Assembly: GCF_900343125.1 (NCBI RefSeq)
Contig: NZ_OPYL01000001.1
Span: forward strand, 434,001 to 498,000
DNA from: Dysgonomonas sp. Marseille-P4361
GTDB lineage: Bacteria > Bacteroidota > Bacteroidia > Bacteroidales > Dysgonomonadaceae
DNA length: 64,000 nt
Direction of reading: 5' to 3'
The translations under genes were made by a program, and so were the position numbers. The notes under the pieces were generated by a model. It was not told the origin of the DNA and searched no databases. It saw only the letters and a list, made by a program, of their open reading frames with translations. Positions 10,050-64,000 of this stretch are shown here, piece after piece. Position 1 is the stretch's first letter; each line of letters begins with the position of its first letter.

Positions 10050-10076
10050 GATTTGCCAAAATTATGGACGGAAAGA

Positions 10077-11045: not shown

Positions 11046-11088
11046 AGTAGCAAGATTCCCCTACTTCTTAACTGTTTACAAAACAATG

Positions 11089-11096
11089 CAAATATA
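11089..11096 (-). promoter_or_regulatory. Candidate -7 element for the tyrosine phosphatase gene
   Basis: The minus strand reads TATATTTG, matching TAnnTTTG, about 44 bp before the ATG at 11045. No clear -33 element is visible. Confidence 0.4.
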
Positions 11097-11182
11097 CAGA
11101 TTTAGTTGATATGTATGATAAAAGAACAGCTAAAACACAATATGGCTTAGCTGCTATTTCTGCGTTTATGATTAAATTACAA

Positions 11183-12429
11183 TCATTCATCTATCATATT
11201 TAGGAAGAAGTCTACTGCTTCATGGGTTCTATACATTGATTGTGTTCTATACACAATCTTCCCTCTTTCATTAATAATGAGATAAGTTGGAAAATCTTTT
11301 AAATTTAACTTCTTCTGTATAGATTTACTTAATTTACCATCCTCTATACTAAACCAATAATTATCCCATTCAATCTTTTCATTATTTATTATTCTTTTTA
11401 ACTTTTCAACACCCTCATAGTCTTCTTCCAGAGCAATTCCTAAAACAAGTACATCTTCTCTATTTTTATTTTTTCATAAAGTTCCTTCAATTCACGGATA
11501 GATACTATGGATGGGCCACTCCAACTACCCCAAAAATTTATAAATACATATTTTCTTTTTATCTTATCATTTATTTTTATTTTTTCATCAGTATCTAAAT
11601 CTCGGGAATAAACTATAGGCATATATGAGTCAACTCGACTGCTATCTACGAAAATAGCTATTTGTTCTAATGTTATATCAGGGTAGCTTACCTCTGATAA
11701 AACGAGCACTTTATCAAGAATATTAATTGTATCACCTCTAGATAAATATCTAGAATCTTCTTCTCCATTCTTATCTTTAAAGCGAATTCGAAAATTTGTC
11801 TTATCATTAAGTTTTCTATCATAAAGATTTGATGAGACATTGCTATTTATTTCTACAGCTATAGCATCAATTTGTGCACTTGCTCCCATATAGTCTACCA
11901 ACCCTATAACAACCTGTAAATCGTCATCTTGCGATATATCATTTTTAATTTGAAAATAATTGTAAGGATCTATAGCAATATGCCCAACTCCATTATTTAT
12001 ATGATCATATATTACTTTTAGTTGTACAAATTTGTCTTTTTTATCCTCTCTTGATAAAGGCACATCAGTAATAGGGAATATAAATAATTCATCGTCTGAA
12101 AAATCATGATTATCATTCGCATCTACGATAACATACTTCTCTTTTTTCTTTTCATTTACTCCTACAAATAAGTATATCTGGTTGGGAATAGAATCGGAAT
12201 AAACAAATTTATCCTTTTTAAAGTAATTGATTGCTGATAAATCACATTTTATCTCTGGTATATTCTTAAGAAAAGAATGATCTTGAGCCACGTAAAGTTT
12301 CACAATATTTCCTGGAACATCAGTATAGAATGACTCTTCTAAGGTTATTTTATAAGAAGAATATACTTTCTTTTCGGAGCATGCTATAAATAATAAGATT
12401 AGCAATAGGGGTAATAATTTTTTGCTCAT
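11183..12429 (-). pseudogene. TlpA-like lipoprotein, frameshifted in the thioredoxin domain
   Basis: The start MSKKLLPLLLILLFIACSEK is a lipoprotein signal with the lipobox cysteine in FIAC. A beta-rich domain of about 270 residues precedes a thioredoxin-like domain. The first frame stops at 11440 (ending KIEKMYLF), but the rest of the fold continues in another frame: EDVLVLGIALEEDYEGV, then the cis-Pro-like DFPTYLIINERGKIV, ending at 11183. One extra A in the AAAAA run near 11453-11465 would restore KNREDVLV. In addition the redox motif reads FWGSWSGPS, with both expected cysteines changed to serine. Either the gene is decaying or the cell uses a redox-dead domain; a sequencing error in the A run is also possible. 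Confidence 0.75.
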
Positions 12430-18512: not shown

Positions 18513-18726
18513 TGTTCATCTTGTAGATATAATAGATAGCTATAGCAATTCCCGCAACGCAAAGAATAATACCTATTTTCTTTACCCACGACTCAGCCTT
18601 CACACCTTCTTCATCGTATTTAGCCTTCCACATCAACGATCTTGGACTGAAGATCATTACCAGACCAAAAATTAACATGAATATGGGTTTAACAAAATCT
18701 ATAGCTGTTATAGCAAGTATTGTCAT
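18505..18726 (-). CDS. Small two-helix membrane protein, unknown
   Basis: This 73-residue protein has helix PIFMLIFGLVMIFSP, a short charged loop (WKAKYDEEGVKAESWVKK) and helix IGIILCVAGIAIAIYYIY. I do not recognise a named family. The start codon shares a base with the stop of the last membrane paralogue, and its end overlaps the YqaA-like start, so it is almost certainly a translated member of the operon. Confidence 0.7.
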   Translation of the reverse strand: MTILAITAIDFVKPIFMLIFGLVMIFSPRSLMWKAKYDEEGVKAESWVKKIGIILCVAGIAIAIYYIYKMNNA

Positions 18727-20426
18727 TAGTGAATACTTTTAAATTGTTTATTTCTTCTTCTCTGATTAACTATATAAAAACATAACACAAATATACTGAT
18801 AATAGTTATGAAGAAACTTATTTTTTGAATCGTTGTTCCTTTATAAAATACTTTAACTTCTCCCGATTTATCAATAGGAAGTTGCATTAGTCCATATTCA
18901 CTTTGAGTATAAGCAATATTTTCATCATTTAATGTTGCACTATAGCCTTTATAATAGAATAGAGGAAGTTCTAGTGAGTCGGATGATGAAGTAGCTACAT
19001 TTAGCATTAGAACACCTTTTTCCCTTTTATAATCAATAATTTCTGAAACACCCATAAGACTTCTGATACTATCACCTCTTTCGAGAACAAAATATGCAGA
19101 AGAAGCCTTTTCTGGAACATATTCTGCCCCATTTAAATAAAAGAAGTTCCCTGGAGTTGGCTTTTCATTAGATTCGCCAATATAGGTTGTATGCATATAT
19201 TTATATTGATCATTATGCATGCATATAGTTAGCCCAATTAATACAATAAAAACAGAGAATACTATTATTCTAGATCTCTGTTTCTTAAAAAGGACAAATA
19301 GGTAATAAGCTACTGCAACAGAGAAAAAGAATGTTATAAATAAAAAGAGCCTTGTAGGATACTGAATGAAAGACAACAAGGTAAAAGGAAATCTACCCCA
19401 TGGGAAAATACTCGAAGTAGCTATTAGATAACCTATGCCAATAATCACCCCCAAGTCTATACTTTTTAGCTTAGATGATTTCTCTTTTATAAAGAAACGT
19501 AACAGTATACCTATGCTAAGTATAACTCCATAGCTTTTTATCATTATATGTTTCGGATAGAAAAACCCCGAGATAATACTCCAAAGCCAATATTCTAAAG
19601 GTTGTTTTGTACGTGATGGTAAAGCCCAATCATTATCTTCGTAACGGAAAGCATTGGATTGTATCTGCTCAAATAAAGGGAAAATATAGGTTGATGTTAT
19701 AGCTATTGTCACGACTCCAGCTATAACAAGGTAATAGAAGCGTTTAGGCTCGCTTAATAAAGTTCTTGAATAAATTAATAAGATAATTACCACTGTTATA
19801 AAAGCAAGAACTGTAGAGATTACATGTGAGAATATAAGTAGACTAAACCCTATTGCGATAATATACCACTTCTTATAATCTCCTTTGATAATATGATACA
19901 AGCCAAGGAAAACTATAGGAAGAAAAGTAAAAGCAAAGACTTCTCCCAATGCCCCGCGATTATAAATATCAAACAATCGATAAACGGAGAATGTATATAA
20001 CAAAGATGACAAGGAGGCTACAAAGGGACTATCGTATATTTTCCTCACTGCAACATACATAAAGATGCCACAAAGGATAGTCATTACAAATAACATTACC
20101 TCGAAAGCAGAAGGTGCATCGATAAGAAGTCCCAACAGTGCAAATGGAATAAAAATTATATCAGAATAAAAGATTTTACTCAAATAACCATATCCTAAAG
20201 CTGCCTCATAATCTATGTAAATAGGGAATGAGCCTTCTTTAATGGCTGTAATAAGAGCTTCGAAACGCTTTAGATGAAAATAATAATCATAACCCGGATA
20301 GTTGCAGCTTGGACCATAAACTAACACCATAAAAAGAGACAACAAGGCTAAAACTAAAAAGAATAACAGAAACTGAACTTTCTTATTAGTTAATAGAAGG
20401 AGTTGAATCTTGTCCAATATCATCAT
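18726..20426 (-). CDS. GT-C-like multispan membrane protein (PTPS-related/YfhO-like), paralogue 4
   Basis: This 566-residue protein has about 11-12 membrane helices and an extracytoplasmic C-terminal beta domain before a final helix. After the first helix it has PGYDYYFHLKRF, fitting a GxDxxFHxxR motif shared by all four copies and resembling the loop Asp of GT-C glycosyltransferases. Other shared blocks are GYGYLSKIFY, RGALGEVFAFTFLPIVFLGL and FFPWGRFPF-type (here IFPWGRFPF). The family is PF10131 (6-pyruvoyl-tetrahydropterin synthase related), whose activity is not established. It overlaps the upstream copy by 4 bp. A lipid-linked sugar transferase role is an inference from fold. Confidence 0.8.
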   Translation of the reverse strand: MMILDKIQLLLLTNKKVQFLLFFLVLALLSLFMVLVYGPSCNYPGYDYYFHLKRFEALITAIKEGSFPIYIDYEAALGYGYLSKIFYSDIIFIPFALLGLLIDAPSAFEVMLFVMTILCGIFMYVAVRKIYDSPFVASLSSLLYTFSVYRLFDIYNRGALGEVFAFTFLPIVFLGLYHIIKGDYKKWYIIAIGFSLLIFSHVISTVLAFITVVIILLIYSRTLLSEPKRFYYLVIAGVVTIAITSTYIFPLFEQIQSNAFRYEDNDWALPSRTKQPLEYWLWSIISGFFYPKHIMIKSYGVILSIGILLRFFIKEKSSKLKSIDLGVIIGIGYLIATSSIFPWGRFPFTLLSFIQYPTRLFLFITFFFSVAVAYYLFVLFKKQRSRIIVFSVFIVLIGLTICMHNDQYKYMHTTYIGESNEKPTPGNFFYLNGAEYVPEKASSAYFVLERGDSIRSLMGVSEIIDYKREKGVLMLNVATSSSDSLELPLFYYKGYSATLNDENIAYTQSEYGLMQLPIDKSGEVKVFYKGTTIQKISFFITIISIFVLCFYIVNQRRRNKQFKSIH

Positions 20427-22120
20427 ACACTTATTCTATCTTTTCTTTTGGAATATATAATATATACAATCAATCCTAGAATACTCAACAGAGTAATATA
20501 CCAACTAATTTTCTGAATAATAGTTCCGGCATAATATACTTCAATATCCGTAGATTTAGTTACTTCAACTTGTACTAAGCCATGATCACTCTCCTCAACA
20601 AGAAATTCTTCTTTAGCTTTATTTACTGCTTTATAACCTTTGTAATAGAGGTAGGGTAATTCTACTTTCTCCAGAGCTTCTGTTTTTATATTGAATGAAA
20701 TTAATCCTTTATTCTTAGAGAAATTACTAATCTCTGTATTAGGGTATGTCGTATTAACTTCATCTCCTCTCTCATTTATAAATTCTAAAGAAGGTACTTT
20801 CACAGGTATATATTCAGCCATACCGAGTAAGTATTGATTTTCGATTGAAGGTATCCCATTAAAGTAATAATAGGGAGCTTGCCTTTTTACAATACTTTGC
20901 CAATTCTTATAATTACTGTCTGACCTGACCATCATCAAGGTAGTAGCAATAACAATTGCACTTACAGCAATAAAAGAAACTTTCTTTGTTTTTATTAATA
21001 CAGATAAGTAATATGCTCCTGCAATGGCAAAGAAGAATACCACAAATTCATATAAGCGCCAAGGGAATTGAACAAAATCTAAAGGCAGTCTCCCCCAAGG
21101 GAAATAAGATGAAACCATAAATAAAAAGATGAGTCCCAGAACAAGACACAAATCAGCAATCTTCCTCAGAACAGTTTTCTCTTTTACGAAAAAGCGCAAA
21201 AGTATAAGTAAGATTAAAAGAGGACCTGTACCGCTGACACTATGCATATAAAAAGGATCCTCTGGATATAGAAAGCCGTTCAACATTCCCCAAAACATTT
21301 GTATCGGATATTGCTTCATTTGCCCAGGAACATTTTCGTTTGTAGAATAATAGAATGTATTGGATAACATTTGTTCAAACATTGGGAGCAGATAACTTGC
21401 AGTAACAAGGACAGTTACTCCTGCAGCCAATAAAAGATACTGTATCCGTTTAGGTTCTTTAAATAAAAGCTTGCAACATATCAAAAGTAAGAATACAGTT
21501 GCGATGAAAGTAAGAAAAGAGGACAATAGATGAGTATATATGATCAAACTATAACCTATTGACAGGATATACCATTTTTTATAATCTCCTGCTATAATAT
21601 GGTACAATCCGAGGAAAATAATAGGAAGGAATGCAAAGGATATTGATTCGCCTAAAGCAGCTCTATTATACCAATCAAATAGATGGTATGGAGAAAAGGT
21701 GTAGACAATAGCACTGACAAATGCGGCAAAAAAGTTTTTAAAAATAGTATTTACGACTAAATACATAAACAATCCACAAAGAACAGAATATGTAAACATC
21801 ATTATATTATAAGCTACTATAGGCTCTATAACCGTTCCTATTATAGCAAAAGGGAGTATTGTCAAGTCCGGATAAAAAGCTTTCGTGAAATATCCATATC
21901 CTTCTAATGTTCCATAGTCAATATAAATTGGATAAGTACCCTCTTTGATCGCTTCTATCAATACATTGAATCTAATTAAATGAAAATGAAAATCATGCCC
22001 TAAATATTTGGATAACGGACCACACCATAGTATCATGAATAACGACAGAAAAATTAATGTCGCTAAGAAAACCCAAAATTCCTTTTTTATAGTAGTTTTT
22101 TCAGAAGATAAGGTTATCAT
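20423..22120 (-). CDS. GT-C-like multispan membrane protein (PTPS-related/YfhO-like), paralogue 3
   Basis: This 565-residue protein is collinear with its neighbours. The loop motif reads LGHDFHFHLIRF, followed by GYGYFTKAFYPD, RAALGESISFAFLPIIFLGL and YFPWGRLPLDFVQFPWRLYEF. The C-terminal domain YYKGYKAVNKAKEEF...HGLVQVEV and final helix match the other copies. It overlaps both neighbours by 4 bp, which implies coupled translation. Repeated YHII.GDYKKWYI blocks show that this and copies 2 and 4 are especially close. The function is unknown beyond the shared family. Confidence 0.8.
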   Translation of the reverse strand: MITLSSEKTTIKKEFWVFLATLIFLSLFMILWCGPLSKYLGHDFHFHLIRFNVLIEAIKEGTYPIYIDYGTLEGYGYFTKAFYPDLTILPFAIIGTVIEPIVAYNIMMFTYSVLCGLFMYLVVNTIFKNFFAAFVSAIVYTFSPYHLFDWYNRAALGESISFAFLPIIFLGLYHIIAGDYKKWYILSIGYSLIIYTHLLSSFLTFIATVFLLLICCKLLFKEPKRIQYLLLAAGVTVLVTASYLLPMFEQMLSNTFYYSTNENVPGQMKQYPIQMFWGMLNGFLYPEDPFYMHSVSGTGPLLILLILLRFFVKEKTVLRKIADLCLVLGLIFLFMVSSYFPWGRLPLDFVQFPWRLYEFVVFFFAIAGAYYLSVLIKTKKVSFIAVSAIVIATTLMMVRSDSNYKNWQSIVKRQAPYYYFNGIPSIENQYLLGMAEYIPVKVPSLEFINERGDEVNTTYPNTEISNFSKNKGLISFNIKTEALEKVELPYLYYKGYKAVNKAKEEFLVEESDHGLVQVEVTKSTDIEVYYAGTIIQKISWYITLLSILGLIVYIIYSKRKDRISV

Positions 22121-23814
22121 GCCTTTAAGCTATTTATCTTATTATTCCTTTTATTAATGAAAATGTATACACACAAAGCCAAAAGACTTAACAGAGAGAT
22201 GAGCCAGCTAATTTTCTGTACCAATGTTCCTCCATAGTATACGTTGATTTTATCTGATTTTGCTGTCTCAATTTGTACCAAACCATTCTCACTTTCTGAT
22301 ACAGGAAGATATTCCCCTGAAGAAGTCTTTGCCTGATAACCTTTATAGTAAACAAGAGGTAATTCTAAAGTAGTCATATCATCTACTCTCACATCAAATT
22401 GTGTTATACCTTTTGCTTTTGTCAAATTTTCCACAGTTATATCTGCACGATCGGTAATGACAACATCTCCTCGTTCTTCTATAAATTCCAATGAAGGAAG
22501 CTTATCCGGAAAATATTCCAACCCTCCTAAATGATATCTATTAGCAAGGACAGGAGCTACATAAAGTGATTGAAAACTTCTTGACTCTTTATATAATGTA
22601 CTATCACTCGATAGCATGACAATTAATAATAACACAATACTAGAAACTCCTATTAACTGTCTCTTATTCGTTTTTAATAGCAATGCTACAAAATATCCAC
22701 CTGCTACTGCAAAGAAGAAACTAGAGAATTCATAGAGTCTCCATGGGAGCTGAATAAAATTCAATAATTTGAAAGGGAAATAACCCCATGGAAAAAATGT
22801 TGATACTGCAAAAACGTATACAAAGCCTACGATAAGAAGAGTATCTACAAGTTTTAGTTCTTTGTTTTTTTCATAGATGAAAAGGCGTAAGAAAATAAAC
22901 ATTGTCAATAAAACCCCTATACCTGGAACAAAGATTTGTTTAGTATGAACAATACCGGTAAACATGCCCCATATGATCCAGTGCAATTCTTTTGCTCCGG
23001 CTTCTACTGGTTCGGTAATATTTCTGGTTTTATAATAAAAAGAGTTAGATAGCATCTGTTCCAACATCGGGTATAGATAGTAAGCTGTAATAAGTAAAGT
23101 TACAAATCCCGCAAGGAATAGATAGCCTATTCGCTGTGGCTCTTGCCTCAATCGTTTATTATAAATGAGTAGAAATACCAAGATTGTAAGAAACATTAAG
23201 ACAGAGGAAATAACATGCGTAAAAATCATTAATCCAAAACCGATGGACAATATATACCACTTCTTGTAATCACCTCTTATTATATGATATAAACCTAGAA
23301 AAACCAATGGAACAAAAGTAAAGGAGATCACTTCTCCTAATGCCGCACGAAAATATAGATCTAACAGTCTGTAGAAGCAAAAAGTATATAATAAAGCACT
23401 TATTAAAGCAGCAATATGATTTTGAAGAATATAATTTACCGTCTTATACGTAAATATACCGCATAGAACAGTAATCGCAAATATCAGTGTCTGATAAGCA
23501 ACCAAAACAGAAGTAAAACAACCTATGATAGCAAAAGGAATAAGAATTACATCCGAATAAAAAGCTTTTGTAAAATAGCCATATCCATTGGCAGAAGCAT
23601 AATCTATATAGCTAGGATAAAAATTTCCATCTGTAAGCGCAGTCATCAATGCTTGTATGCGTACAAAGTGGAAATGTAAATCATGTCCCGGATATAAAGG
23701 AGAATATAAATACATCATAATGGATGTAAGTAATAGAAGTATAGCAAAGAATACCCAGAAATGATTCTTTTTATTTATAGCTACTCTATTTATTATTCTG
23801 TCTATAGAATCCAT
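22117..23814 (-). CDS. GT-C-like multispan membrane protein (PTPS-related/YfhO-like), paralogue 2
   Basis: This 565-residue protein carries the loop motif PGHDLHFHFVRI, GYGYFTKAFYSD, RAALGEVISFTFVPLVFLGL and FFPWGYFPFKLLNFIQLPWR. It has the same C-terminal YYKGYQAK domain and last helix as the other copies. The start overlaps the end of paralogue 1 by 29 bp and the end overlaps paralogue 3 by 4 bp. Conserved charged residues in the first loop suggest that the active site is retained in every copy. Substrates may differ between copies. Confidence 0.8.
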   Translation of the reverse strand: MDSIDRIINRVAINKKNHFWVFFAILLLLTSIMMYLYSPLYPGHDLHFHFVRIQALMTALTDGNFYPSYIDYASANGYGYFTKAFYSDVILIPFAIIGCFTSVLVAYQTLIFAITVLCGIFTYKTVNYILQNHIAALISALLYTFCFYRLLDLYFRAALGEVISFTFVPLVFLGLYHIIRGDYKKWYILSIGFGLMIFTHVISSVLMFLTILVFLLIYNKRLRQEPQRIGYLFLAGFVTLLITAYYLYPMLEQMLSNSFYYKTRNITEPVEAGAKELHWIIWGMFTGIVHTKQIFVPGIGVLLTMFIFLRLFIYEKNKELKLVDTLLIVGFVYVFAVSTFFPWGYFPFKLLNFIQLPWRLYEFSSFFFAVAGGYFVALLLKTNKRQLIGVSSIVLLLIVMLSSDSTLYKESRSFQSLYVAPVLANRYHLGGLEYFPDKLPSLEFIEERGDVVITDRADITVENLTKAKGITQFDVRVDDMTTLELPLVYYKGYQAKTSSGEYLPVSESENGLVQIETAKSDKINVYYGGTLVQKISWLISLLSLLALCVYIFINKRNNKINSLKA

Positions 23815-25501
23815 ATTTTCTATTTCTATTTAGTATCACGAATATAATCAGAAGAATTGCCCCCGATAGAGAGACATAGAAACTTACGTCTTGTATCGTC
23901 GTGCTTTTGTAAATTGCATTAATATTTCCCGATTCCACAACATAAATTTCAATCAGTCCATCATTACTTTCATGTATAGGAATATCAATTCCGCGCAAAG
24001 TTACATTATATCCTTTATAAAATAGCAACGGAAGAACTAAAGTATCAGGTTTATTAATACTTACATCAAATGATGTCTGATTATAACCTCTATCTATATC
24101 CGATATCTTAGTATCTTCGTTTAGGAAGGTAACAACCTCTCCTCTTGTATATGCATATTCCATCATCGGATATTTTGAAGGAAAATACTCCCCTCCTATC
24201 GTATGATACCTATTATACATCGTTGGCTTTTCAGGAGACTCACCTGTATCAGTCAATGTTGTTTTCTGAGGATATAATTCCTTAAAATTCTCGCTATGAA
24301 TATAAGTCGTCCCCATTATCACTAAAACTAAGATAGCAGAAACAAGAAAACGCTGCTTTTCTTTAACAAAAAGCACAGAAAGATAATAAGCACCTGCAAT
24401 AGCAAAAAAGAAACTCACAAACTCATAAAGTCTCCAAGGATATTGTATAAAAGACAATAAGTTAAAAGGGAATCGTCCCCAAGGAAAAATACGGGAAGTG
24501 ATAAGTATAAAGCAAATGCCTATAATAACTCCTATATCTACCATTCTCAACAAGCCAGACTGTTCCTTTTTTACAAAAAAACGGACTAAGAGCACTAATA
24601 CTAAAACAATACCAACACCAGTCCACATATGAGTGTCAGGGTAGGCTATACCGCTCACCAGCCCCCAAAGAATAAGATCAAAGCCAACTTTACCATAGCC
24701 GGCTCCCCCCCCTGGATTGCGAGAATCCAGATAAAATGAATTATGACTTATTTGTTCTACAAGAGGCAAAATGTAGTAAGATGTCAACAACAAAGTAACA
24801 ACACCTGCAAGGAATAAATAAGTGATTCGTTTAGGTTCACTGATAAAAGATTTATAATTAATTGCTAACAATATCAACAATGTTACAAACATCAGTACCG
24901 ATGCTATAACATGCGAATAGATAAGCGAAGTATAACCTATTGCAAGGATATACCATTTCCGATAATCTCCTTTTATAACATAATAAAGTCCAAGAAATAC
25001 AATAGGAAGAAAAGAGAAAGATAAAGCCTCGGCCAAAGCTCCTCTGTGATATATGTCATAAAGACGATATACAGCAAATGTATAAAGAATAGCACCTAAA
25101 AATGCAGCATACCGACTATTGAAAATAACCTTAATCGTGTGATACATAAACATACCACACAACACAGTCATTACAAAAATCATTGTATCATAAGCAAAAT
25201 AGGTACTCGTAAAAAGTCCTATAAAAGCAAAAGGTAATAGAATAAGGTCTGGATAAAATGGTTTTACGAGATAACCATATCCATCCACATTGCTATAATC
25301 AATATAAGAGATATAGTCTCCATGCTTTAAAGCATCAATCAGGACATCTAACCGTCGGTAATGAAAAAAGAAATCAAACCCGGAGTACGAGGCAGATAAA
25401 CCATTACAGAACATCATAAACAAAGTAAGAAAAACCAACACCAGCATAAATACCCAGTATTGATTTCCATATCTTGAAATAATGCTATTCTCCAAATTCA
25501 T
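23786..25501 (-). CDS. GT-C-like multispan membrane protein (PTPS-related/YfhO-like), paralogue 1
   Basis: This 571-residue protein is the first of four tandem copies. It has the loop motif SGFDFFFHYRRL, GYGYLVKPFYPD, RGALAEALSFSFLPIVFLGL and IFPWGRFPFNLLSFIQYPWR, with a C-terminal FYKGYNVTLRGIDIPI domain and a final helix. The first helix near residues 15-32 probably acts as signal anchor. It begins 15 bp after the single-helix protein gene, which itself follows polA by 13 bp, so the block seems to belong to a polA-led transcription unit. The acceptor and donor are unknown. Confidence 0.8.
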   Translation of the reverse strand: MNLENSIISRYGNQYWVFMLVLVFLTLFMMFCNGLSASYSGFDFFFHYRRLDVLIDALKHGDYISYIDYSNVDGYGYLVKPFYPDLILLPFAFIGLFTSTYFAYDTMIFVMTVLCGMFMYHTIKVIFNSRYAAFLGAILYTFAVYRLYDIYHRGALAEALSFSFLPIVFLGLYYVIKGDYRKWYILAIGYTSLIYSHVIASVLMFVTLLILLAINYKSFISEPKRITYLFLAGVVTLLLTSYYILPLVEQISHNSFYLDSRNPGGGAGYGKVGFDLILWGLVSGIAYPDTHMWTGVGIVLVLVLLVRFFVKKEQSGLLRMVDIGVIIGICFILITSRIFPWGRFPFNLLSFIQYPWRLYEFVSFFFAIAGAYYLSVLFVKEKQRFLVSAILVLVIMGTTYIHSENFKELYPQKTTLTDTGESPEKPTMYNRYHTIGGEYFPSKYPMMEYAYTRGEVVTFLNEDTKISDIDRGYNQTSFDVSINKPDTLVLPLLFYKGYNVTLRGIDIPIHESNDGLIEIYVVESGNINAIYKSTTIQDVSFYVSLSGAILLIIFVILNRNRKYGFYRQNNK

Positions 25502-50240: not shown

Positions 50241-50254
50241 TTCTTTATTATTAG

Positions 50255-50327
50255 AGCGGAAGACGGGGCTCAAACCCGCGACCCTCAGCTTGGAAGGCTG
50301 ATGCTCTATCAACTGAGCTACTTCCGC
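50255..50327 (-). tRNA. tRNA-Gly (anticodon TCC)
   Basis: A 73-nt cloverleaf on the minus strand. The acceptor stem GCGGAAG pairs with CTTCCGC. The D arm is GCTCAGTTGATAGAGC, the anticodon arm TCAGC-CTTCCAA-GCTGA with anticodon TCC, and the T arm GCGGG-TTTGAGC-CCCGT. The discriminator base is T, usual for bacterial tRNA-Gly. CCA is not encoded. Confidence 0.95.
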
Positions 50328-50612
50328 ATTTAGTTAGATTTCTTATTGATAATCTGAACTTTATACTACTCTCAAAACTGCAATTACAGTTCGCTAATTT
50401 TTCCGGTTTAAGTGTCGGTTTAAATATCTACCTAAATCAAGACAGTTAATAACTGTTTTTTATTAATAGGCAAATGTATCTTAATCTAATTAATGTTGCA
50501 AGTCGTTTCTAAAAATATTTTTTTTATTCTCCTTGAACCTGTTCGTATCATATTTATTTGTATATATTTGTCATGAGCATTTCATTATCTTTGCTCATAA
50601 GATCAAGAATTG

Positions 50613-54219: not shown

Positions 54220-57069
54220 ATGACCAACATACAGACCGAAGCACAGATGGAGTCCGAATTGATAAGCCAACTCGAACAGCTGGGATATCAATACGTAACC
54301 ATTGGGAACGAAACCGATTTACTTGCTAACTTCAAGCTACAACTCGAAAAACATAACAAAATAGCATCTTTGTCCGAGCGCGAGTTCGATCAGATAGTCA
54401 ACAAGCTGCAAAAAGGCAGCATCTTCGACAAAGCCAAAACGCTCCGTCAGAAGATGGATTATACCCGCGACGACAATACCGTAGGCTATGTAGATCTGAT
54501 TGATATGTTCGACTATTGCCAGAATACCTATCAGGTGACCAATCAGGTGACCATTGATGGCAAGTATCAGAACCGTTACGATGTCACCATCCTTATCAAC
54601 GGTTTGCCTTTGGTGCAAATAGAATTGAAGCGTCGCGGCTTAGAGTTGAAAGAAGCTTTCAATCAGACCAACCGTTACGAGCGCCATAGCTACGGGGCTG
54701 GCTACGGACTGTTTCAGTACATCCAGCTCTTTGTTATCAGCAATGGAGTGAATACAAAATACTATGCCAATAGCAAAATCAGTGCACGTAGCTTCGAGCA
54801 AACTTTCTATTGGACCGACACCCAAAACAATCAGATAACGCAGCTCAAAGATTTTACTTACCAGTTTCTCGACACTTGTCACTTGTCGAAGATGATAACC
54901 AAATACATCGTACTCAACGAATCTACTGATACCTTGATGGTGCTTCGCCCCTATCAGTATTATGCAGTGGAGGAGATTGTGAAACGTGTTCGCGAAAGCA
55001 ACGAGAATGGCTATACATGGCATACAACGGGCAGCGGAAAGACACTGACTTCGTTCAAGACAAGCCAGATAATCACTTCCATTCCCGATATTGCAAAAGT
55101 TGTTTTCGTTGTCGATCGTAAAGACTTGGACTATCAGACTGTCAAGGAGTTCAATAGTTTCAGCAAAGGCAGCATCGATGGCACGAACAATACGCAGGCG
55201 TTGGTCAAGCAGTTTAAAGATCCCGATCCGCAAAAGAAGCTGATCGTAACCACTATTCAGAAACTCGATATAGCTATCAGCGGTTCGCGTTATGCCAAAG
55301 TTATGGAGCGTTTTCGTGACGAAAAGGTCGTCTTTATCTTCGACGAATGTCATCGCAGCCAGTTTGGAGAAACGCACCGACGTATCCGTAACTTCTTCCC
55401 TAAAGCTCAGTTATTCGGCTTTACAGGTACACCTATATTTGAGAAAAATGCAGTAAAGAATGCATTAGGCAAACGTACTACCGAAGAACTTTTTGGAAAG
55501 TGCTTGCATAAATATGTGATAACCGATGCTATCCGCGACAATAACGTATTGAAGTTTTCTGTAGAGTATTACAGTACTTACAAGAAAAAGGACAATATAC
55601 AAGACGAAGAAGTTCAGGCAATAGATACCGCCGAAGTGCTGAACGACCTGCGACGAATAGAGAATAATGTAGATTTCATTATTGCCAATCATAACAGAAA
55701 GACACATTCTCGTCAGTTTACAGCTATGATGTGCGTTTCTTCTGTTCAGATGCTGATTCAGTATTACGAACTTTTTAAGAAAAAGCAACAAGAGGGCAAG
55801 CACAACCTTCGTGTGGCTACCATCTTCTCTTTTCAAGCGAATGAGGAGGACAAAGAAGCCAATGGAATGGGTACAGTCGATATTGACGACGAGTTTTTAG
55901 ACGACGAGCCTACGATTCCATATGCTCACTCGCGCGATAAGCTTGACGAGTATATGACAGATTATAACAGGATGTTCGGCACAAATTATAACACCGGTAC
56001 ATTCTACGAGTATTATAACGACATTGCCAGAAAGGTTAAGGCTCAACAGGTAGATATTTTGCTTGTTGTCAACATGTTTTTGACGGGATTCGATAGTAAA
56101 ACGCTCAATACGCTCTATGTGGATAAAAACCTGAAATATCACGGGCTGATACAAGCATATTCGCGCACCAACAGAATACTGAATGCAGTTAAGTCGCAAG
56201 GAAACATTGTTTGTTTCCGCAATCTGAAACAGGAGACAGATGATGCTGTGGAGCTTTTTGCAAACAAGGATGCTAAAAGTATCATAACAATGCCACCTTA
56301 CGAGGACTTTATTCGTGAGTTTAACCTAGCTTTAGTCGATTTTTACACACTTGTTCCAACAGTGGATAGTGTATCTTCGCTTGCAGACGAAGATGCTCAG
56401 ATTGCTTTTGTAAAGAGCTATCGTCTGTTGATGCGTCTGATGAATAAACTGGAATGTTTCTCACAATTCACGTTCTCCGATCTGGATATTGACAAGCAGA
56501 CTTATGAAGACTACAAGAGCAAGTATCTTGATCTGTATGAGGATATAAAAGACGATCGCGAGAAACCTGAGAAAGTATCCATTTTGAACGATATTAACTT
56601 CGAGCTGGAGCTTATTCATCGCGACGAGATCAATGTTGCTTATATTTTGACCTTGCTCGGTCGTTTGCGTGAAAGTTCGGTTGAAGAGCAAGCTACAATA
56701 CGAAAGTCGTTGATGGACTCATTGACCAATACTCCATCAATGCGTAGTAAGCGTGAACTGATAGAGAAATTTATCAATGAGAATTTATTTCACCTGACAG
56801 ATGAAGATGATTTAGAAAGCAAGTTCTTCGAATTCTGGGATGAAGAGAAACTAAAAGCTTTGAATAAGTTATCGGAAGAAGAAGAATTGAAGGAAGACAA
56901 ACTTCAGTCTGTTATCAGTGATTATTTGTACACAGGTCGAACACCTCTCCGCGATGATCTGGTAGAAACAATGAAAACTCGTCCAGCTCTGAAAGAACGC
57001 AAATCGAAAGCTGAAAAAATACTGGCAAAGATAAAGGACTATGTGGAGTTGTTTATTGAGGGGGTGTGA
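54220..57069 (+). CDS. hsdR: Type I restriction endonuclease subunit HsdR
   Basis: This 949-residue protein has an N-terminal PD-(D/E)xK nuclease (D in YDVTILING, ExK in QIELKRRG, residues about 123-145), followed by a superfamily 2 translocase: Walker A HTTGSGKTLTSF, motif Ia VDRKDLDYQT, motif II FDECHRS, motif III GFTGTPI, and motif VI QAYSRTNRIL. It pumps DNA using ATP and cuts when translocation is blocked. The C-terminal helical region probably contacts HsdM/HsdS. It ends the RM operon; no terminator is obvious. Confidence 0.97.
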   Translation: MTNIQTEAQMESELISQLEQLGYQYVTIGNETDLLANFKLQLEKHNKIASLSEREFDQIVNKLQKGSIFDKAKTLRQKMDYTRDDNTVGYVDLIDMFDYCQNTYQVTNQVTIDGKYQNRYDVTILINGLPLVQIELKRRGLELKEAFNQTNRYERHSYGAGYGLFQYIQLFVISNGVNTKYYANSKISARSFEQTFYWTDTQNNQITQLKDFTYQFLDTCHLSKMITKYIVLNESTDTLMVLRPYQYYAVEEIVKRVRESNENGYTWHTTGSGKTLTSFKTSQIITSIPDIAKVVFVVDRKDLDYQTVKEFNSFSKGSIDGTNNTQALVKQFKDPDPQKKLIVTTIQKLDIAISGSRYAKVMERFRDEKVVFIFDECHRSQFGETHRRIRNFFPKAQLFGFTGTPIFEKNAVKNALGKRTTEELFGKCLHKYVITDAIRDNNVLKFSVEYYSTYKKKDNIQDEEVQAIDTAEVLNDLRRIENNVDFIIANHNRKTHSRQFTAMMCVSSVQMLIQYYELFKKKQQEGKHNLRVATIFSFQANEEDKEANGMGTVDIDDEFLDDEPTIPYAHSRDKLDEYMTDYNRMFGTNYNTGTFYEYYNDIARKVKAQQVDILLVVNMFLTGFDSKTLNTLYVDKNLKYHGLIQAYSRTNRILNAVKSQGNIVCFRNLKQETDDAVELFANKDAKSIITMPPYEDFIREFNLALVDFYTLVPTVDSVSSLADEDAQIAFVKSYRLLMRLMNKLECFSQFTFSDLDIDKQTYEDYKSKYLDLYEDIKDDREKPEKVSILNDINFELELIHRDEINVAYILTLLGRLRESSVEEQATIRKSLMDSLTNTPSMRSKRELIEKFINENLFHLTDEDDLESKFFEFWDEEKLKALNKLSEEEELKEDKLQSVISDYLYTGRTPLRDDLVETMKTRPALKERKSKAEKILAKIKDYVELFIEGV

Positions 57070-57179
57070 CTATTGGAAATAAGATTTTTACAGGAGATAG
57101 TAATAGTGTAGATAAGAATCGCAGTATAACAACGCAGATTTTAAATTAGTATAAAAATTAATTACTTTTCTTATTCAGT

Positions 57180-57293
57180 AACTATACGTAGGAATAGTTT
57201 ATCTAGTTAGAATGAAAGGCGAGAATTACTTCCCCCCCCTTAAATGTTTTCACAACGGAATAATCTCTATTGTGATAAGCTTTCAATTTTTGC
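57180..57293 (-). ncRNA. Type II-C tracrRNA
   Basis: On the minus strand a 22-nt stretch (57268-57289 region) is an exact complement of the 5' part of the crRNA repeat, as expected for an anti-repeat. It is followed by ATTATTCCGTTGTGAAAAC and then AAGG, which I recall as typical of Bacteroidetes II-C tracrRNAs. The G8 run, then CTCGCCTT, could form the terminal stem although its pairing is imperfect. The array is 5.6 kb away, with a truncated cas9 between. The exact 3' end is a guess. Confidence 0.75.
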
Positions 57294-57326
57294 AAGAATA
57301 CATTTTATTTTTTTAATTTACATATT
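57293..57326 (-). promoter_or_regulatory. Candidate tracrRNA promoter
   Basis: On the minus strand TATG, a spacer of about 20 bp and TATTCTTG fit TTTG/TAnnTTTG with one change each. Transcription would start right at the anti-repeat. Confidence 0.5.
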
Positions 57327-57428
57327 TATTAAAAACAATTAATTTTAAGAGTTAATTCTTAGATGGAGTTGCTAGCTTTACAGGAACAAAAATAAAGGAT
57401 TAATTTTATCACAAACACATTCATTATT

Positions 57429-58961
57429 ATGTCAAGAGAAGTAAAGTACAATAATATGTCTTTATTAAAATTGTTAAGATACTCTGCTTTCATATTATTA
57501 AATATATTTTCTTTTGCTTTATCGGCAAATGATAGGGTAATTAAAGAAGAGATTGACAGTTTATTGGAACTTAGCAAATCCCATAAAATTAATGTAAAAA
57601 TTGAAGAATCAGTTAGAACTACATATTTAGCTCTTAAAAAAAGTAATGAGATAAATTATTCAGAAGGAAGAGCTTCTGCTTATTTGGGGCTAGCGCAAAC
57701 ACTTTTTTATTTGGGGAACTATGAGAAAGCTCTCAATTATCTGACTTTAACCGAAAATGAGTCTTCTTCCGCAAAGAATAAAAACAGAATGTTTGAAATT
57801 AGTAGAATTAGAGGCCAAATATTTTCATATCTTAATTTAAACGATAAAGCTCTACGAGAATTTTTCAAATGTAAAATCCTAACTAATGACTTAAAACCTG
57901 AAGAGCTAAAAGGTTATGCCCTAAGCTTAACCTATGAAAATCTGGTTGTAGTTTATAATAATATCCATAACGATGATTCAGTCTATTACTATATGAATAA
58001 GAATAAAGAACTCTTAGAGTTAATGGATGAAACATATATTTATAGAAATCTAGTCAACCTATATACCTCGTTTGGAGATTGGTATACAAGTAAAAAAGAC
58101 TTTGATTTAGCCGTTTTTAACTTCAGTAAAGCCATAGATTTAGCAGATAAATATCATTATGATTATAGATCAAGAACTTACATGTATATGGGCGATATGT
58201 TTACAGAGCAGCAGAAAAATGATTTAGCTTTGTGTTATTATCATAGAGCCTTGAATAACATCAATCAAACCGGAATAAAAGGAGAATTTATCTCCGTCTA
58301 TTCAAAAATTTCTTTACTATATGATAAATTGGGAATACTCGATTCTGCAAAAATATACAGAGAAAAAGGATTATTAATAGAACATGAATTACATGAAGAA
58401 CGAGAAAAGTGTATAGGTTCTGTATTAGATTTTTTTATTAAGGAAGAAAAGAAGCAGCAACAAGCTCAGAGACGTAAAATACTCACAATTATATCAATTT
58501 CCGCAATTTGTCTCCTTTCTTTTTCTGTATTTCTTTTTATAAGAACTAAAAATAAACTACTACTTAGAAAAGCTCGTTTAAGAGAAGAGCTAACCAAGAC
58601 TATCGAAGAAATTAGGCAAGATGCGAAAGTTTTAGAGAAAAAACTAAATAGCTCATTTGATGAAATAGTAACATTGGCAAAAAATAATGATCATGTCTTA
58701 CCAAAAAGATTCAAGGAAGTATATCCAGAAATAACTACTTCATTGCTCAAGTTACATCCAGACCTAACCTATTCTGAATTTATTCTCTGCATTTACATCT
58801 TTCTAAATTTTTCAACAAAAGACATCGCAACTTTCACCCATGTCGAGCATCGATCCGTACAAACGAAGAAGAATAGATTAAGAAAAAAACTAAATCTTCC
58901 TACAGGTGCCTCCATCGAAGCATACCTTGATTCTCTAAATAAATCTACATTAAATATCTAG
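57429..58961 (+). CDS. TPR regulator with membrane helix and C-terminal LuxR-like HTH
   Basis: This 510-residue protein has a signal-like start (SLLKLLRYSAFILLNIFS), TPR repeats (about 60-330; GLAQTLFYLGNYEKALNYL is one clear repeat), a membrane helix (ILTIISISAICLLSFSVFLF, about 352-371), a coiled coil and a C-terminal HTH (about 435-500; DIATFTHVEHRSVQTKKNRL). This layout is common in Bacteroidetes beside surface-protein genes. Here it is followed by such a gene. Its position between tracrRNA and cas9 is foreign to a CRISPR locus, so it was probably brought in by the same rearrangement. An alternative start is ATG 57456. Confidence 0.85.
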   Translation: MSREVKYNNMSLLKLLRYSAFILLNIFSFALSANDRVIKEEIDSLLELSKSHKINVKIEESVRTTYLALKKSNEINYSEGRASAYLGLAQTLFYLGNYEKALNYLTLTENESSSAKNKNRMFEISRIRGQIFSYLNLNDKALREFFKCKILTNDLKPEELKGYALSLTYENLVVVYNNIHNDDSVYYYMNKNKELLELMDETYIYRNLVNLYTSFGDWYTSKKDFDLAVFNFSKAIDLADKYHYDYRSRTYMYMGDMFTEQQKNDLALCYYHRALNNINQTGIKGEFISVYSKISLLYDKLGILDSAKIYREKGLLIEHELHEEREKCIGSVLDFFIKEEKKQQQAQRRKILTIISISAICLLSFSVFLFIRTKNKLLLRKARLREELTKTIEEIRQDAKVLEKKLNSSFDEIVTLAKNNDHVLPKRFKEVYPEITTSLLKLHPDLTYSEFILCIYIFLNFSTKDIATFTHVEHRSVQTKKNRLRKKLNLPTGASIEAYLDSLNKSTLNI

Positions 58962-59441
58962 CAGGGAATACTTTCTACTGAGTCCTCGCTATAAATACAC
59001 TCTATTAAGAGGAGCGTTACTCAATATACATAATAAATACTTTAATTGTATATTATTAATAAAATTCATATTTCTCATATAGAACCAAGCCTTTATACTT
59101 TTCTGTTGAGATAGATAGGCTCGTAAGTCCATTATATAGTAATAAGGTTGAGGATATACAATCATGCTAATAGGATTAAATGATAGTAAAGTCTATTATT
59201 AGAAGCCGATAAGAATTTAAAAACATCAAAACAATAAAATATAGACATTACTTTTACTGTATTTTGTGTTAAATAGAAATTGAGAACACTCAACAGGGAC
59301 ACTATTATAATATTATAAATAAACAATATAATGCAATGTTGTAGATTTGTTGTATGCCTATTTTAGGAATATACAGACGAAAACAGGAGCTTTGTATATA
59401 CGTTAAATAAATACAAATACAAATCACAAATCACAAAACAC
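58962..59441. other. Intergenic region between the TPR regulator and the surface-protein gene
   Basis: This AT-rich stretch of 480 bp contains no convincing ORF, tRNA or CRISPR repeat. No strong -7 element or terminator stands out. A long leader for the surface-protein gene is possible. Confidence 0.4.
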
Positions 59442-59993
59442 ATGAATAGGAGAATTAAAGAAAAGGAAATACCAATCTTTTTAAGATCATTATTATTATT
59501 ATTAATTTTAGGTATAGCGACAAGTGTTCAAGCTCAAGTTACTATTGGAGCTGGAGAACCTCCTCACAAAGATGCGCTATTAGATCTAAAAGAAAATAAC
59601 TCAGGCTCATCATCCAAAGGATTTTTGCTCCCCCGAGTGCCTCTTACGTCAACAACATCTGCATTTCCCCTATCTGATCATGTTGCCGGAATGACCGTTT
59701 ATAACACATCCACTGTAAATGATGTAGTTTCGGGATATTATTATAATGACGGAACAAAGTGGATTAGGCTTATGGCAGATGCGACAGCTATTATGCCGCG
59801 TTTTTTCTATATGCCATCGATTGTTATGCCTACGGATACTGCTGATCCCGCCTATAATACAGCTACACAAGAATTCACCATCGATTTATACAACCAATAC
59901 AAACAACAACGATACGCGATATATCAACAAGATTGTGATGAGATTATTGTCAAATGTGGTTCGAGAAGAAGGAGAGCTGGATGTCGCCTCTAA
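59442..59993 (+). pseudogene. 5' part of a surface-protein gene, fused out of frame to cas9
   Basis: The 183-residue reading has a Sec signal (PIFLRSLLLLLILGIATSVQA) followed by VTIGAGEPPHKDALLDLKE, KGFLLPRVPLTSTT and GMTVYNTST, a start seen in large families of Bacteroidetes surface proteins. After about LYNQYKQQ (near 59905) the sequence becomes cas9 in a different frame, and the reading ends 27 codons later with CGSRRRRAGCRL. The 3' part of the original gene is missing. It pairs with the TPR regulator upstream, so the pair was probably moved as a unit. The shortened product would still be secreted. Confidence 0.75.
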
Positions 59994-61554
59994 GAATGTT
60001 ACGATTTGTACCGGAAATGTAACCTCTGTTTTAAAACGTGATTGGGGGTTAGATGCTGTTTGGAATAACTTGATAATTTCACGTTTCGAACGGATGAACC
60101 AGTTGAGGAATCACACTGTATTTACTGTCTGGAACGAGCAGTATCAAAAATTTCTTCCAACCATTCCGTTGGAGTTTTCCAAAGGATTCCAAAAGAAACG
60201 TATTGACCACCGCCACCACGCCATGGACGCCTTGGTTATTGCTTGTACAACAAAAGATCATGTGAATTTGCTGAATAATCAATCGGCTAAATCTAACATG
60301 AAGAGATATGACTTACAACGAAAGTTAAGAATGTTCGAGAAAGCTTCTTATTTCGACAAAACAGTCGGGAGGCAAGTTGAAAGAGAAATTCCTAAAGAAT
60401 TTATAAAACCGTTGAATAGCTTCACTATTGATGCCCAAAATGAATTGGCGAAAATTGTAGTTAGCTTTAAACAAAACTTGCGAGTGATTAATAAAGCAAC
60501 TAATAGGTATCAAGCCTACGAAAATGGGAACAAAGTTTTGAAATTGCAAACGAAAGGTGATCTTTGGGCTATAAGGAAGCCTCTACATAAAGATATGCCA
60601 TTTGCCAAAGTTTCATTGCGGAAAAAAAAGAGTGTAAAACTGAGCGAAGCATTGAAAAATGTAGAAGATATTGTTGATAAAGAATTGAGAAGTGAGATTC
60701 GAAGAATCAGTGGAGTATACGGAAAATTTGATCCTGACTTAATAAATAAATACTTTAGAGACAGAAAATATATTTGTGGAGAAAATGATATATCGAAGGT
60801 TGAGATTTATTATTTTGATACCGAAAATGCAGCTAAACGAGTGCTATTAGATTCTTCATTTACGGAGAAAGTTATAAAAGAATCTATTACAGATAGTGGC
60901 ATACAAAAAATTCTCCTGAATTATTTGTCAAAGAAGGGCAATAAGCCGGAATTGGCCTTCTCACCAGAAGGTATTGAAGAAATGAACCAACATATTACAA
61001 CCTTCAATGATAATAAACCTCATCAACCGATCTATAAAGTATGTGTGTATGAAACAATCGGCAATAAATTTCGTGTGGGCTATACAGGAAATAAAAAGAA
61101 AAAATTTGTTGAGGCTGAAAAAGGGACGAATTTATTCTTTGCCATTTATGCGGATGAGAAAGGCAATCGTTCATATGAAACCATTCCGCTAAATATTGTT
61201 ATAGAGAGGTTTAAGCAAGGATTAAACGCTGCTCCTGAAAGGAATGAAAAGGGACATGGATTATTGTTCCATTTATCGCCGAATGATTTGGTATATGTAC
61301 CAACGGAGGAGGAGAGAGTAAATGCTATTTCTAAAGACTCAATAAATTTGACTCGAATATATAAAATCGTAAGTTTTACAGGAAGCAGACTTTATGCAAT
61401 ACCACATTTTGTGGCTAAACCAATTATTGATAAAGTCGAATTCTTCCAACTAAATAAAGTTGAAAACGATATAGATACTGGTTTCTCTATAAAACATGTG
61501 TGCATAAAACTCCATATTGATCGTGTAGGAAACTTTAAGCCTTTGCAAACATGA
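59911..61554 (+). pseudogene. cas9: C-terminal fragment of type II-C Cas9
   Basis: About 547 codons match the last third of Cas9. They begin at NDTRYINKIVMRLLSNVVRE, then KNVTICTGNVTSVLKRDWG, the RuvC-III block RIDHRHHAMDALVIACTT with its His and Asp, and the WED and PAM-interacting regions to the stop. RuvC-I, the bridge helix, the recognition lobe, RuvC-II and HNH are absent; a full family member has about 1,450 residues. The cas9 part lies in frame 1, the surface-protein start in frame 3. An ATG at 59938 (MRLLSNVVRE) could start a 538-residue product. It overlaps cas1 by ATGA. It cannot cut DNA by itself. Confidence 0.92.
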
Positions 61555-62489
61555 TCAAGAAAACACTCTATTTCGGTAACCCTGCATACCTGAGTATGCG
61601 AAACAGTCAATTGGTAGTAAAATTGCCTGAGGTTGAAAAAAGTGAAAAGCTACCCAATACATTTAAGAAGGATAGTGAGTTGATTTTCCCTATTGAGGAT
61701 TTGGGAGTTATCATCCTCGACCATAAACAAATCACGCTAACTCATGGGTTAATAGAAATGCTATTGGAAAATAATACAGCTCTAATAACCTGCAATAGCA
61801 GCCGTATGCCGGTTGGTTTGATGCTTCCGCTCTGTGGAAATAAAACTCAGACGGAGAAATTTAATGCACAGATTCAGGCTACCGATCTTTTGAAAAAGAA
61901 TCTTTGGCAACAAACCATCAAGGCTAAGATAAAGAATCAGACCTGTGTTTTGAGAAAATTCCGCTCATGTAATATCCGTAATATGGAGTATTGGGCGAAT
62001 GATGTAAAGAGTGGTGATCCTGATAATTACGAAGCCCGGGCTGCCGCTTATTACTGGAAAGAGGCTTTTCCTAAAATCGATAATTTTGTAAGAGGTAGGG
62101 ATGAACTTCCTCCTAACAATCTGTTAAATTATGGCTATGCCATTCTTCGGGCGATTGTGGCACGTTCACTAGTTTCAAGCGGATTATTGCCTACTTTTGG
62201 GATACATCATCACAACCGTTACAATGCCTATTGCTTAGCAGACGATATTATGGAACCTTATCGCCCTTTTGTAGACAGTATTGTACTTTCGATAGTTGAT
62301 ACTGGAGAAGGTTTTGAAGAATTATCACGATCTGTAAAAACACAGTTATTGCAAATACCGACTATAGATGTAATGATTAATAGCAGAAAGAGTCCTTTGA
62401 TGGTCGCAATAAGCCAGACCACCTCTTCATTAGCACAATGTTTTGAAGGTAAATTGCGAAAAATAAAATATCCTGAATTTGTATTGTGA
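61551..62489 (+). CDS. cas1: CRISPR-associated integrase Cas1 (type II)
   Basis: This 312-residue protein is complete. The metal-binding residues are Glu161 (NYEARAAAYYW), His219 (GIHHHN) and Glu235 (ADDIMEPYRP). With Cas2 it forms the complex that inserts new spacers. Its ATG overlaps the cas9 stop, so translation may depend on ribosomes finishing the cas9 fragment. In type II systems Cas9 also helps choose spacers with a PAM, so adaptation may be impaired or unselective here. No sign of decay is seen. Confidence 0.96.
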   Translation: MIKKTLYFGNPAYLSMRNSQLVVKLPEVEKSEKLPNTFKKDSELIFPIEDLGVIILDHKQITLTHGLIEMLLENNTALITCNSSRMPVGLMLPLCGNKTQTEKFNAQIQATDLLKKNLWQQTIKAKIKNQTCVLRKFRSCNIRNMEYWANDVKSGDPDNYEARAAAYYWKEAFPKIDNFVRGRDELPPNNLLNYGYAILRAIVARSLVSSGLLPTFGIHHHNRYNAYCLADDIMEPYRPFVDSIVLSIVDTGEGFEELSRSVKTQLLQIPTIDVMINSRKSPLMVAISQTTSSLAQCFEGKLRKIKYPEFVL

Positions 62490-62837
<348 letters not shown>

Positions 62838-62838
62838 A

Positions 62839-62870
62839 AAAAAAATCCTGATCGAAATCAGGATTTTTTT
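62839..62870 (+). terminator. Terminator after cas2
   Basis: A perfect 14-bp stem (62839-62852 with 62857-62870) with a CGAA loop is followed by Ts, immediately past cas2. Confidence 0.9.
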
Positions 62871-62943
62871 TCAAATACATCACTTTTTAAAATCCTAACA
62901 AGTTGCGATAATCATTGAAATACAATATGTTATGAATACCTCT

Positions 62944-63296
62944 GCTGTATTTCAAGGAACTAATATACAAAATTGAAAGCTTATCACAATGTATTTGCTC
63001 TCGGATGTAATTTGGACGAAGCTGTATTTCAAGGAACTAATATACAAAATTGAAAGCTTATCACAATCCAGTTACAGGAGAAGTATAAGTAACCTTGCTG
63101 TATTTCAAGGAACTAATATACAAAATTGAAAGCTTATCACAATGGAAATCAACGACATAGCTTTCTGCAACTCGCTGTATTTCAAGGAACTAATATACAA
63201 AATTGAAAGCTTATCACAATGTTTACGCATGATGACGCAAATGAATACTGCTGTATTTCAAGGAACTAATATACAAAATTGAAAGCTTATCACAAT
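62944..63296 (-). CRISPR. Type II-C CRISPR array, five 47-nt repeats and four spacers
   Basis: Identical 47-nt repeats lie at 62944-62990, 63021-63067, 63097-63143, 63174-63220 and 63250-63296. They are separated by spacers of 30, 29, 30 and 29 nt. The repeat unit starts GCTGTATTTCAAGG and ends GAAAGCTTATCACAAT on the plus strand. Because type II crRNA repeats start near GTTGTG and the tracrRNA anti-repeat matches the other end, I infer that crRNA is read from the minus strand. There is no degeneration between copies. The spacers differ from each other. Confidence 0.97.
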
Positions 63297-64000
63297 ATGA
63301 TTGAAGGTTAAACAAATACACTTTATATCAAACTAAGGCCAACAATACCATTCCTCTTCGTGAGGTTCTCGATGAAGAAAAGATTCCTCCCGCGCTAAAA
63401 GGCTGCAAAATGTACGCTAATATTTGCACGCTACGCTAATATGAAACTGTATAGGAAAATTCATTGATGGCATTTGATAAATTGAATAGGATGTATATGT
63501 AGTTTTCTTTTCCTTTGGTGGATTGTAATACTTGATTTATAGGATTCGAATAGCTTTTTCTCCATAAAGAAAATTGTTGTTTTAAAATAACCATTTATTA
63601 TCTGTGTGGTGATTGATAGTATGCTTTGTATAGCATTATTTTAGCTTGGTATTTTATGTTAGTTTTACTTTTATAAAAAATAGAACTTGTAAATAGTTTA
63701 TAATCAAAGATAAATATTTATACAATGATATTAGTTAATATAAATTAACAAAAAAAATAACGAGGAGGGTACTCTTGTTTGCGCGGAAGCCATATATATA
63801 ATTTGGCCGTATTTTCCAAGTCCGATTTTTTCTGGTATGGTTATTATAAAACTACTTTTTGAGATTTCTGATTTTCCGGCGGGGGCGATTTTACCAAGTC
63901 TGGGTTTTGTTAAAAGTTGACGCATAGAATTAAGTTTTTTTTAAGGCAAAAAGCACTGTCTGGGATAACTCTCCAAGCGGCACGTAAAAGTGCCTAAAAA
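63297..64000. other. Region right of the array, partly coding-like
   Basis: From 63297 to about 63335 the sequence is array flank. At 63338-63441 one plus-strand frame reads like protein (NNTIPLREVLDEEKIPPALK), with GC-richer bases than its surroundings, and ends at a stop; it lacks a start. The stretch 63442-63730 is AT-rich with nothing recognised. A short hairpin (GGCAC/GTGCC) is seen at about 63979-63994. Confidence 0.4.
63731..63925 (-). CDS. Short hypothetical ORF
   Basis: This 64-residue minus-strand ORF starts at ATG 63925 and reads MRQLLTKPRLGKIAPAGKS, then FIITIPEKIGLGKYGQII. The first 45 residues have protein-like composition with positive charge, and the last 15 become hydrophobic. 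I do not recognise a family. It may be the 5' part of a broken gene or element. Confidence 0.25.
   Translation of the reverse strand: MRQLLTKPRLGKIAPAGKSEISKSSFIITIPEKIGLGKYGQIIYMASAQTRVPSSLFFLLIYIN

Follow-up and report, generated by a model that had tools for sequence, protein, structure and literature searches.

The window, by which we mean the whole stretch of 64,000 nucleotides analyzed here, covers positions 434001-498000 of an 893,885-base contig from the 3.30-Mb genome of Dysgonomonas sp. Marseille-P4361 (13 contigs, 99.8% complete). It contains a CRISPR-Cas locus in which a tracrRNA gene, a cas9 leader, a foreign block, the tail of cas9, cas1, cas2 and a CRISPR array follow one another in the 5'-to-3' direction. 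Its features, in window coordinates, are the following:

57210..57295, minus strand: tracrRNA gene; the anti-repeat occupies 57269-57290, and both the core and the terminator-like stem after it are altered (3' end approximate)
57296..57360, plus strand: what is left of the cas9 5' leader, its end lying ~12 nt ahead of the expected cas9 start codon
57361..59907, plus strand: foreign block occupying the position of cas9 codons 1 to ~939 (left edge ± ~10 nt)
57429..58961, plus strand: intact TPR regulator-like gene of 510 codons, within the foreign block
59442..59993, plus strand: head of a putative surface-protein gene, with 156 native codons and then 27 out-of-frame codons running through cas9 DNA to a stop
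59908..59909, plus strand: junction, AA, a 2-nt overlap of the surface-gene and cas9 homologies
59908..61554, plus strand: cas9 3' remnant, 548 stop-free codons from RuvC-III to the C-terminus
61551..62489, plus strand: intact cas1 (PF01867, E = 5.5e-27), with a 4-nt overlap with the cas9 remnant
62499..62837, plus strand: intact cas2 (PF09827, E = 1.8e-18)
62945..63297, minus strand: CRISPR array of five identical 47-nt repeats and four spacers (strand of transcription taken from the anti-repeat)

Apart from cas9 itself and the changes in the tracrRNA, the locus has the makeup of a type II-C system. The open reading frame (ORF) list places the cas9 tail, cas1 and cas2 alone ahead of the array, with cas1 and cas2 adjoining cas9 and apparently neither csn2 nor cas4 in the locus, and the 22-nt anti-repeat of the tracrRNA gene is fully complementary to the five identical repeats of the array. 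A search of the genome for Cas1 matched this locus alone and thus revealed no second Cas1-bearing system. None of the four spacers had an exact match in viral_contigs, where exact matches were searched. When the array was compared with its own genome, the matches besides the array itself and the tracrRNA anti-repeat were 15 to 28 bases long and none spanned a whole spacer, for which reason self-targeting was rejected as a cause of the loss.

A tRNA-Gly(TCC) gene is located at 50254-50327, and a 76-bp exact direct repeat (50253-50328 and L041:17766-17841) recurs ~20.4 kb away, where the second copy adjoins a tyrosine integrase gene that lies ~6-7 kb beyond the array. Between the two repeats we found hsdM, hsdS, a gene with a T5orf172 domain, hsdR, the CRISPR locus and a KilAC gene. 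This ~20.4-kb stretch, carrying a type I restriction-modification system along with the CRISPR locus, is likely a tRNA-integrated defense island. Elsewhere in the window (18726-25501, minus strand), there are four tandem overlapping ORFs of 565 to 571 codons, two of which weakly match membrane families (YfhO, below the cut-off, and PTPS_related) while the other two have no Pfam match.

A full-length Cas9, with all RuvC parts, the bridge helix, REC and HNH, is missing, and what remains is RuvC_III (PF18541, E = 8e-50) and the C-terminus. In a sequence search, the sole solved protein matched by the tail was CbCas9 (PDB 8iyq), with two aligned stretches that fall between residues 929 and 1426 (E = 2e-157); the alignment reaches near the C-terminus, with a stretch of ~70 residues of the tail missing from CbCas9. 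The initial annotation had described a type II-C cas9 reduced to its last ~547 codons, in good agreement with the 548 codons at 59908-61554. A contig scan for cas9 relatives yielded at least 570 confirmed candidates, and the closest among the best 80 of 570 that were kept came from Dysgonomonas sp. 520 (L043) and a Tannerella sp. MAG (L042), both ~75% identical to the tail and with intact Cas9 proteins of 1485 and 1487 residues, respectively. Since the first residue retained in the tail (N of NDTRYI) is residue 940 in both, ~939 codons are missing. The replacement of the cas9 front proposed initially is thus borne out, although its estimate of ~900 codons was too low. In L043, the stretch before RuvC-III contains the bridge helix and HNH (HNH_4 in Pfam), and the lost part presumably held RuvC-I/II and REC as well. 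A search of the genome for the missing 5' part had been recommended; with the 939 N-terminal residues of L043 as query, there was no match in the 3.30-Mb assembly at an E value of ≤1, whereas the same query matched all five cas9-bearing relatives used as a positive control (G024 weakly, with a best E value of 4e-18). A TIGR01865 profile search of the genome matched the tail alone. As also noticed before, an ATG at 59938 lies in the cas9 frame, which stays open for 538 codons from there, and the tail overlaps cas1 by 4 nt at 61551 (ATGA), an arrangement by which translation of the tail would possibly be coupled to that of cas1.

Comparison with the two intact relatives allowed both edges of the foreign block to be placed. 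On the left, the alignment between 57216-57355 of the window and 988-1129 of L043 (81% identity, blastn) covers the tracrRNA and the cas9 leader, stopping 12 nt short of the L043 start codon at 1141, and as the leader homology ends there, the block starts near 57355-57367 (the leader of L042 is longer than that of L043). The interior of the block had no blastn match to L042 or L043. On the right, the surface-gene homology extends to codon 156 (59909), one nucleotide past the start of the cas9 homology at 59908; the two thus overlap by 2 nt, AA, and the surface-gene frame (from 59442) and the cas9 frame (from 59908) differ at the junction; from this point onward, the DNA of the locus is ~78-79% identical to L042 and L043. 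Judged from these alignments, the foreign block takes the place of cas9 codons 1 to ~939, and its ~2.55 kb compare with the ~2.8 kb of cas9 displaced. The out-of-frame join had been correctly located near 59905-59911 in the initial annotation, but a short CAAC repeat as the joining site is not supported, as L042 and L043 read CAAATGAACGAT there. Likewise, the head of a surface-protein gene does replace the cas9 front, but the replacement does not begin with that gene at 59442; it begins near 57355-57367 and includes the regulator gene. Neither this gene nor the left breakpoint at the cas9 start had been noticed initially, and the alterations of the tracrRNA and the island flanked by tRNA had been overlooked too.

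The GC content of the block is 0.29 over 57361-59441, compared to 0.35 for the window, and no second DNA copy of it was found in the genome among the 40 of 107 candidates scored. The protein encoded by its first gene matches TPR_12 (E = 1.5e-10) and, below the threshold, DUF6377 (Pfam). At an E value of ≤1e-10 it has matches in 28 of 101 genomes of the family, this genome included, and the best three homologues (48-51% identical, near full length) come from a different genus within the family. The 24 remaining genomes of the window's own genus gave no full-length match, only weak partial ones that were mostly C-terminal. At two of these three best loci (L159 and L160), the regulator is found ~560 bases ahead of a gene pair, which in L159 is DUF3575 plus DUF3868 (Pfam) and in L160 has similar starts; the third (L158) has different neighbors. 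In the window, 480 bases separate the regulator from the surface gene.

The surface-gene head has no Pfam match, and its signal-peptide-like start suggests a surface location for the encoded protein. Each of the 25 genomes searched in the genus contained matches to it, and its identity to proteins of 217 to 229 amino acids in other genomes of the genus was 50-64%. Seven homologous loci (L139 to L145) have frames of 217 to 229 codons, of which the window keeps 156, the 3' end being gone, so that the gene is not full length. In five of them (L139 to L143), the surface gene has the same signal-peptide-like start and is 61-64% identical up to codon 156; it is followed by a second gene (180, 181, 181, 181 and 170 amino acids) and then by a further frame running off the fetched locus, which in L140 has a sub-threshold SprB-repeat match. 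At the locus studied here, the rear of the surface gene and whatever came after it are gone. A 181-amino-acid second-gene query matched four of six homologous loci (tblastn) and nothing in this genome, which is weak evidence because two homologous loci, L144 and L145, carry a second gene different from that of L139 to L143. The surface-head family is large: this genome has another 22 matches, all of them weaker, and a relative (G017) has 81. We infer that the block was a module made of a regulator and a surface gene, the rear of which was lost in the same deletion that took the cas9 front.

The tracrRNA gene is also changed. Rfam reported only tRNA in the window and no tracrRNA, and the element aligns with the same one upstream of the intact cas9 genes of L042 and L043. 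Its core, AATAAGGATTATTCCGTTGTGA, was sought in the window and in 83 relative loci, allowing up to five substitutions and keeping the best match. It was matched in 74 of the 83 loci, 69 of them exactly and five with one change (L040 and L087 are the same genome, leaving 73 distinct loci). The nine loci lacking a match were L047, L060, L082 and L117 (contig end), L110 (cas9 front lost), L078, L081, L098 and L108. All 74 matched loci have A and G at core positions 5 and 6, whereas the window has G and A. The hairpin at these positions, which we take to be the nexus, forms two inner pairs in the window against three in the relatives when folded. The fold of the whole element is also weaker (z score of -1.8, against -2.9 to -4.6 in four relatives). 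The term nexus is used in PMC11417352. Whereas the second, terminator-like stem runs unbroken in L042 and L043, the window has an interruption in it; this mismatch is weak evidence, as L038 and L039, which have a full cas9, also show an internal mismatch in that stem. The U-run of L043 is missing in the window, and L042 does not have a long one either. Within the stem, on the plus strand, there are eight C residues at 57232-57239, where L043 has CCCaCC and L042 has CCCgCC, a run that could reflect slippage, decay or a sequencing error. From the sequence, the two core changes appear to be a strong sign and the other differences weak ones; these tracrRNA changes could predate the break in cas9 or be tolerated.

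To describe selection, we applied a two-ratio codon model to the window together with L042, L043 and L044. Omega for the tail was 0.110 on the branch of the window and 0.078 on the other branches (2dlnL of 1.84), and for cas1 it was 0.071 and 0.036 (2dlnL of 3.64), values that must be read as weak given that dS is close to saturation. The codon model gave no clear signal of relaxed selection on the tail. Private amino acid changes numbered 38 in the window tail versus 15 and 6, and 11 in cas1 versus 3 and 3. The lack of stops in the tail and its low dN/dS would fit a recent event, and omega mostly reflects the time before the break.

The locus, with its effector disrupted and the other parts kept, is best explained as an inactivated type II-C CRISPR-Cas system in which a foreign block has taken the place of the cas9 front, a reading to which we assign a probability of roughly 0.87, and the inactivation is probably recent. 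The regulator and surface-gene module would have entered at the cas9 start, after which a deletion from surface codon 156 to cas9 codon 940 would have been sealed by end joining with two shared nucleotides; alternatively, one replacement event could have produced both the insertion and the deletion. As everything before RuvC-III is lost and the tracrRNA core is changed, interference would be abolished and spacer uptake guided by Cas9 would probably be lost too, with cas1, cas2 and the array persisting as passengers. In favor of an inactivated locus, both breakpoints fall within one gene and can be placed against intact relatives. On the other side, the tail is open over its 548 codons and was constrained for most of the branch, where a long-dead gene would look otherwise, and the five identical repeats and the perfect anti-repeat also count against it. 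The case is ordinary in kind and unusual in its detail, the replacement junction. It provides a clear fossil of CRISPR loss, with both breakpoints placeable to within a few bases and a guide-RNA gene altered at otherwise fixed positions next to cas1, cas2 and an array that still appear sound, and it is a warning for annotation pipelines that cas1, cas2, an array and a strong Cas9 match may still amount to a dead locus.

Several other explanations were considered. An assembly artefact, by which a regulator and a surface-gene fragment were mis-spliced into an intact cas9 locus, might draw on the 22 other weak surface-head matches in the genome, but these are only 32-52% identical and none lies in a frame near 229 codons. 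Such an error would also need two separate false joins, both in one gene, and the missing half of cas9 is not in the assembly, no second copy of the block appeared among the 40 of 107 candidates scored, and the tracrRNA changes are independent of any join; we consider it very unlikely. Less probable still is continued synthesis of the Cas9 tail from the ATG at 59938, yielding a PAM-interacting protein or a scaffold in its own right that assists Cas1-Cas2 or binds DNA. The 538 open codons, the 4-nt overlap with cas1, the low omega (0.11) and the alignment to CbCas9 to near the C-terminus, save for the ~70-residue stretch, would be expected of such a protein. However, the surface-gene frame passes 59938 on its way to the stop at 59993, so the start sits in another frame, the tracrRNA is altered at two invariant core sites, omega is mostly a pre-break signal, and no family of stand-alone tails was seen among the best 80 of 570 confirmed relatives. 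The DNA-binding-only or scaffold peptide that could still be made according to the initial annotation has no positive support as a useful product, given the loss of everything before RuvC-III and the tracrRNA changes.

A more specific version, in which the tail is translated alone as a PAM-reading or structural partner of Cas1-Cas2 without interference, the old cas9 leader now driving the TPR regulator, has an even slimmer chance; if true, the lone tail would represent a Cas9 reduced to a role in adaptation. The least credible of the explanations is a reversible switch, in which the cas9 head and the surface gene are exchanged by site-specific inversion or shuffling with the other halves stored elsewhere. 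Bacteroidales are known for invertible surface loci, and there is the tyrosine integrase gene beyond the array, but the assembly lacks the head of cas9 and the junction has just 2 nt in common. Of the 79 inverted-repeat pairs in 57000-64000, the 25 longest include none that connects the two block edges.

L043 and L042 resemble the window in having a tracrRNA on the opposite strand ahead of cas9, followed by cas9, cas1, cas2 and the array, and differ from it in their Cas9 proteins of 1485 and 1487 residues, the common tracrRNA core and the unbroken terminator-like stem. Among the best 80 of 570 loci, the cas9 frame reaches 1350 codons or more in 72; of the remaining 8, four run into a contig end and four look broken, although some of the breaks may be errors, as these are single assemblies. 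In L053 and L104, cas9 changes frame, and in L086 the match is in one frame with an open stretch of just 1039 codons, which implies a stop. In L110 (Phocaeicola faecium Sa1YUN3, 9713-11623), cas9 is kept from L043 residue 845 on, so that, as in the window, only the C-terminal part of Cas9 is found beside cas1 and cas2. Unlike the window, however, L110 has two tyrosine-integrase genes just upstream of the remnant, which point to a mobile-element insertion as the likely cause of its cas9 loss.

Inactive systems have been reported elsewhere. In Mollicutes, at least 8 of 21 type II systems were judged inactive (PMC6882279, in the part available), and the same was concluded for type II loci of Prevotella intermedia strains in which cas2 carries a prophage-related insertion or an array contains a transposon (PMC5608340, likewise in part). 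The available portions of these two papers make no mention of a cas9 front replaced by a regulator and a surface-gene head, and that of PMC4607530 has nothing on broken cas9. Among the literature matches listed, there was no report of a cas9/surface-gene junction, which does not prove its absence from print. Degraded type II loci are already described, and the locus in the window would be a further example, with an unusual replacement junction.
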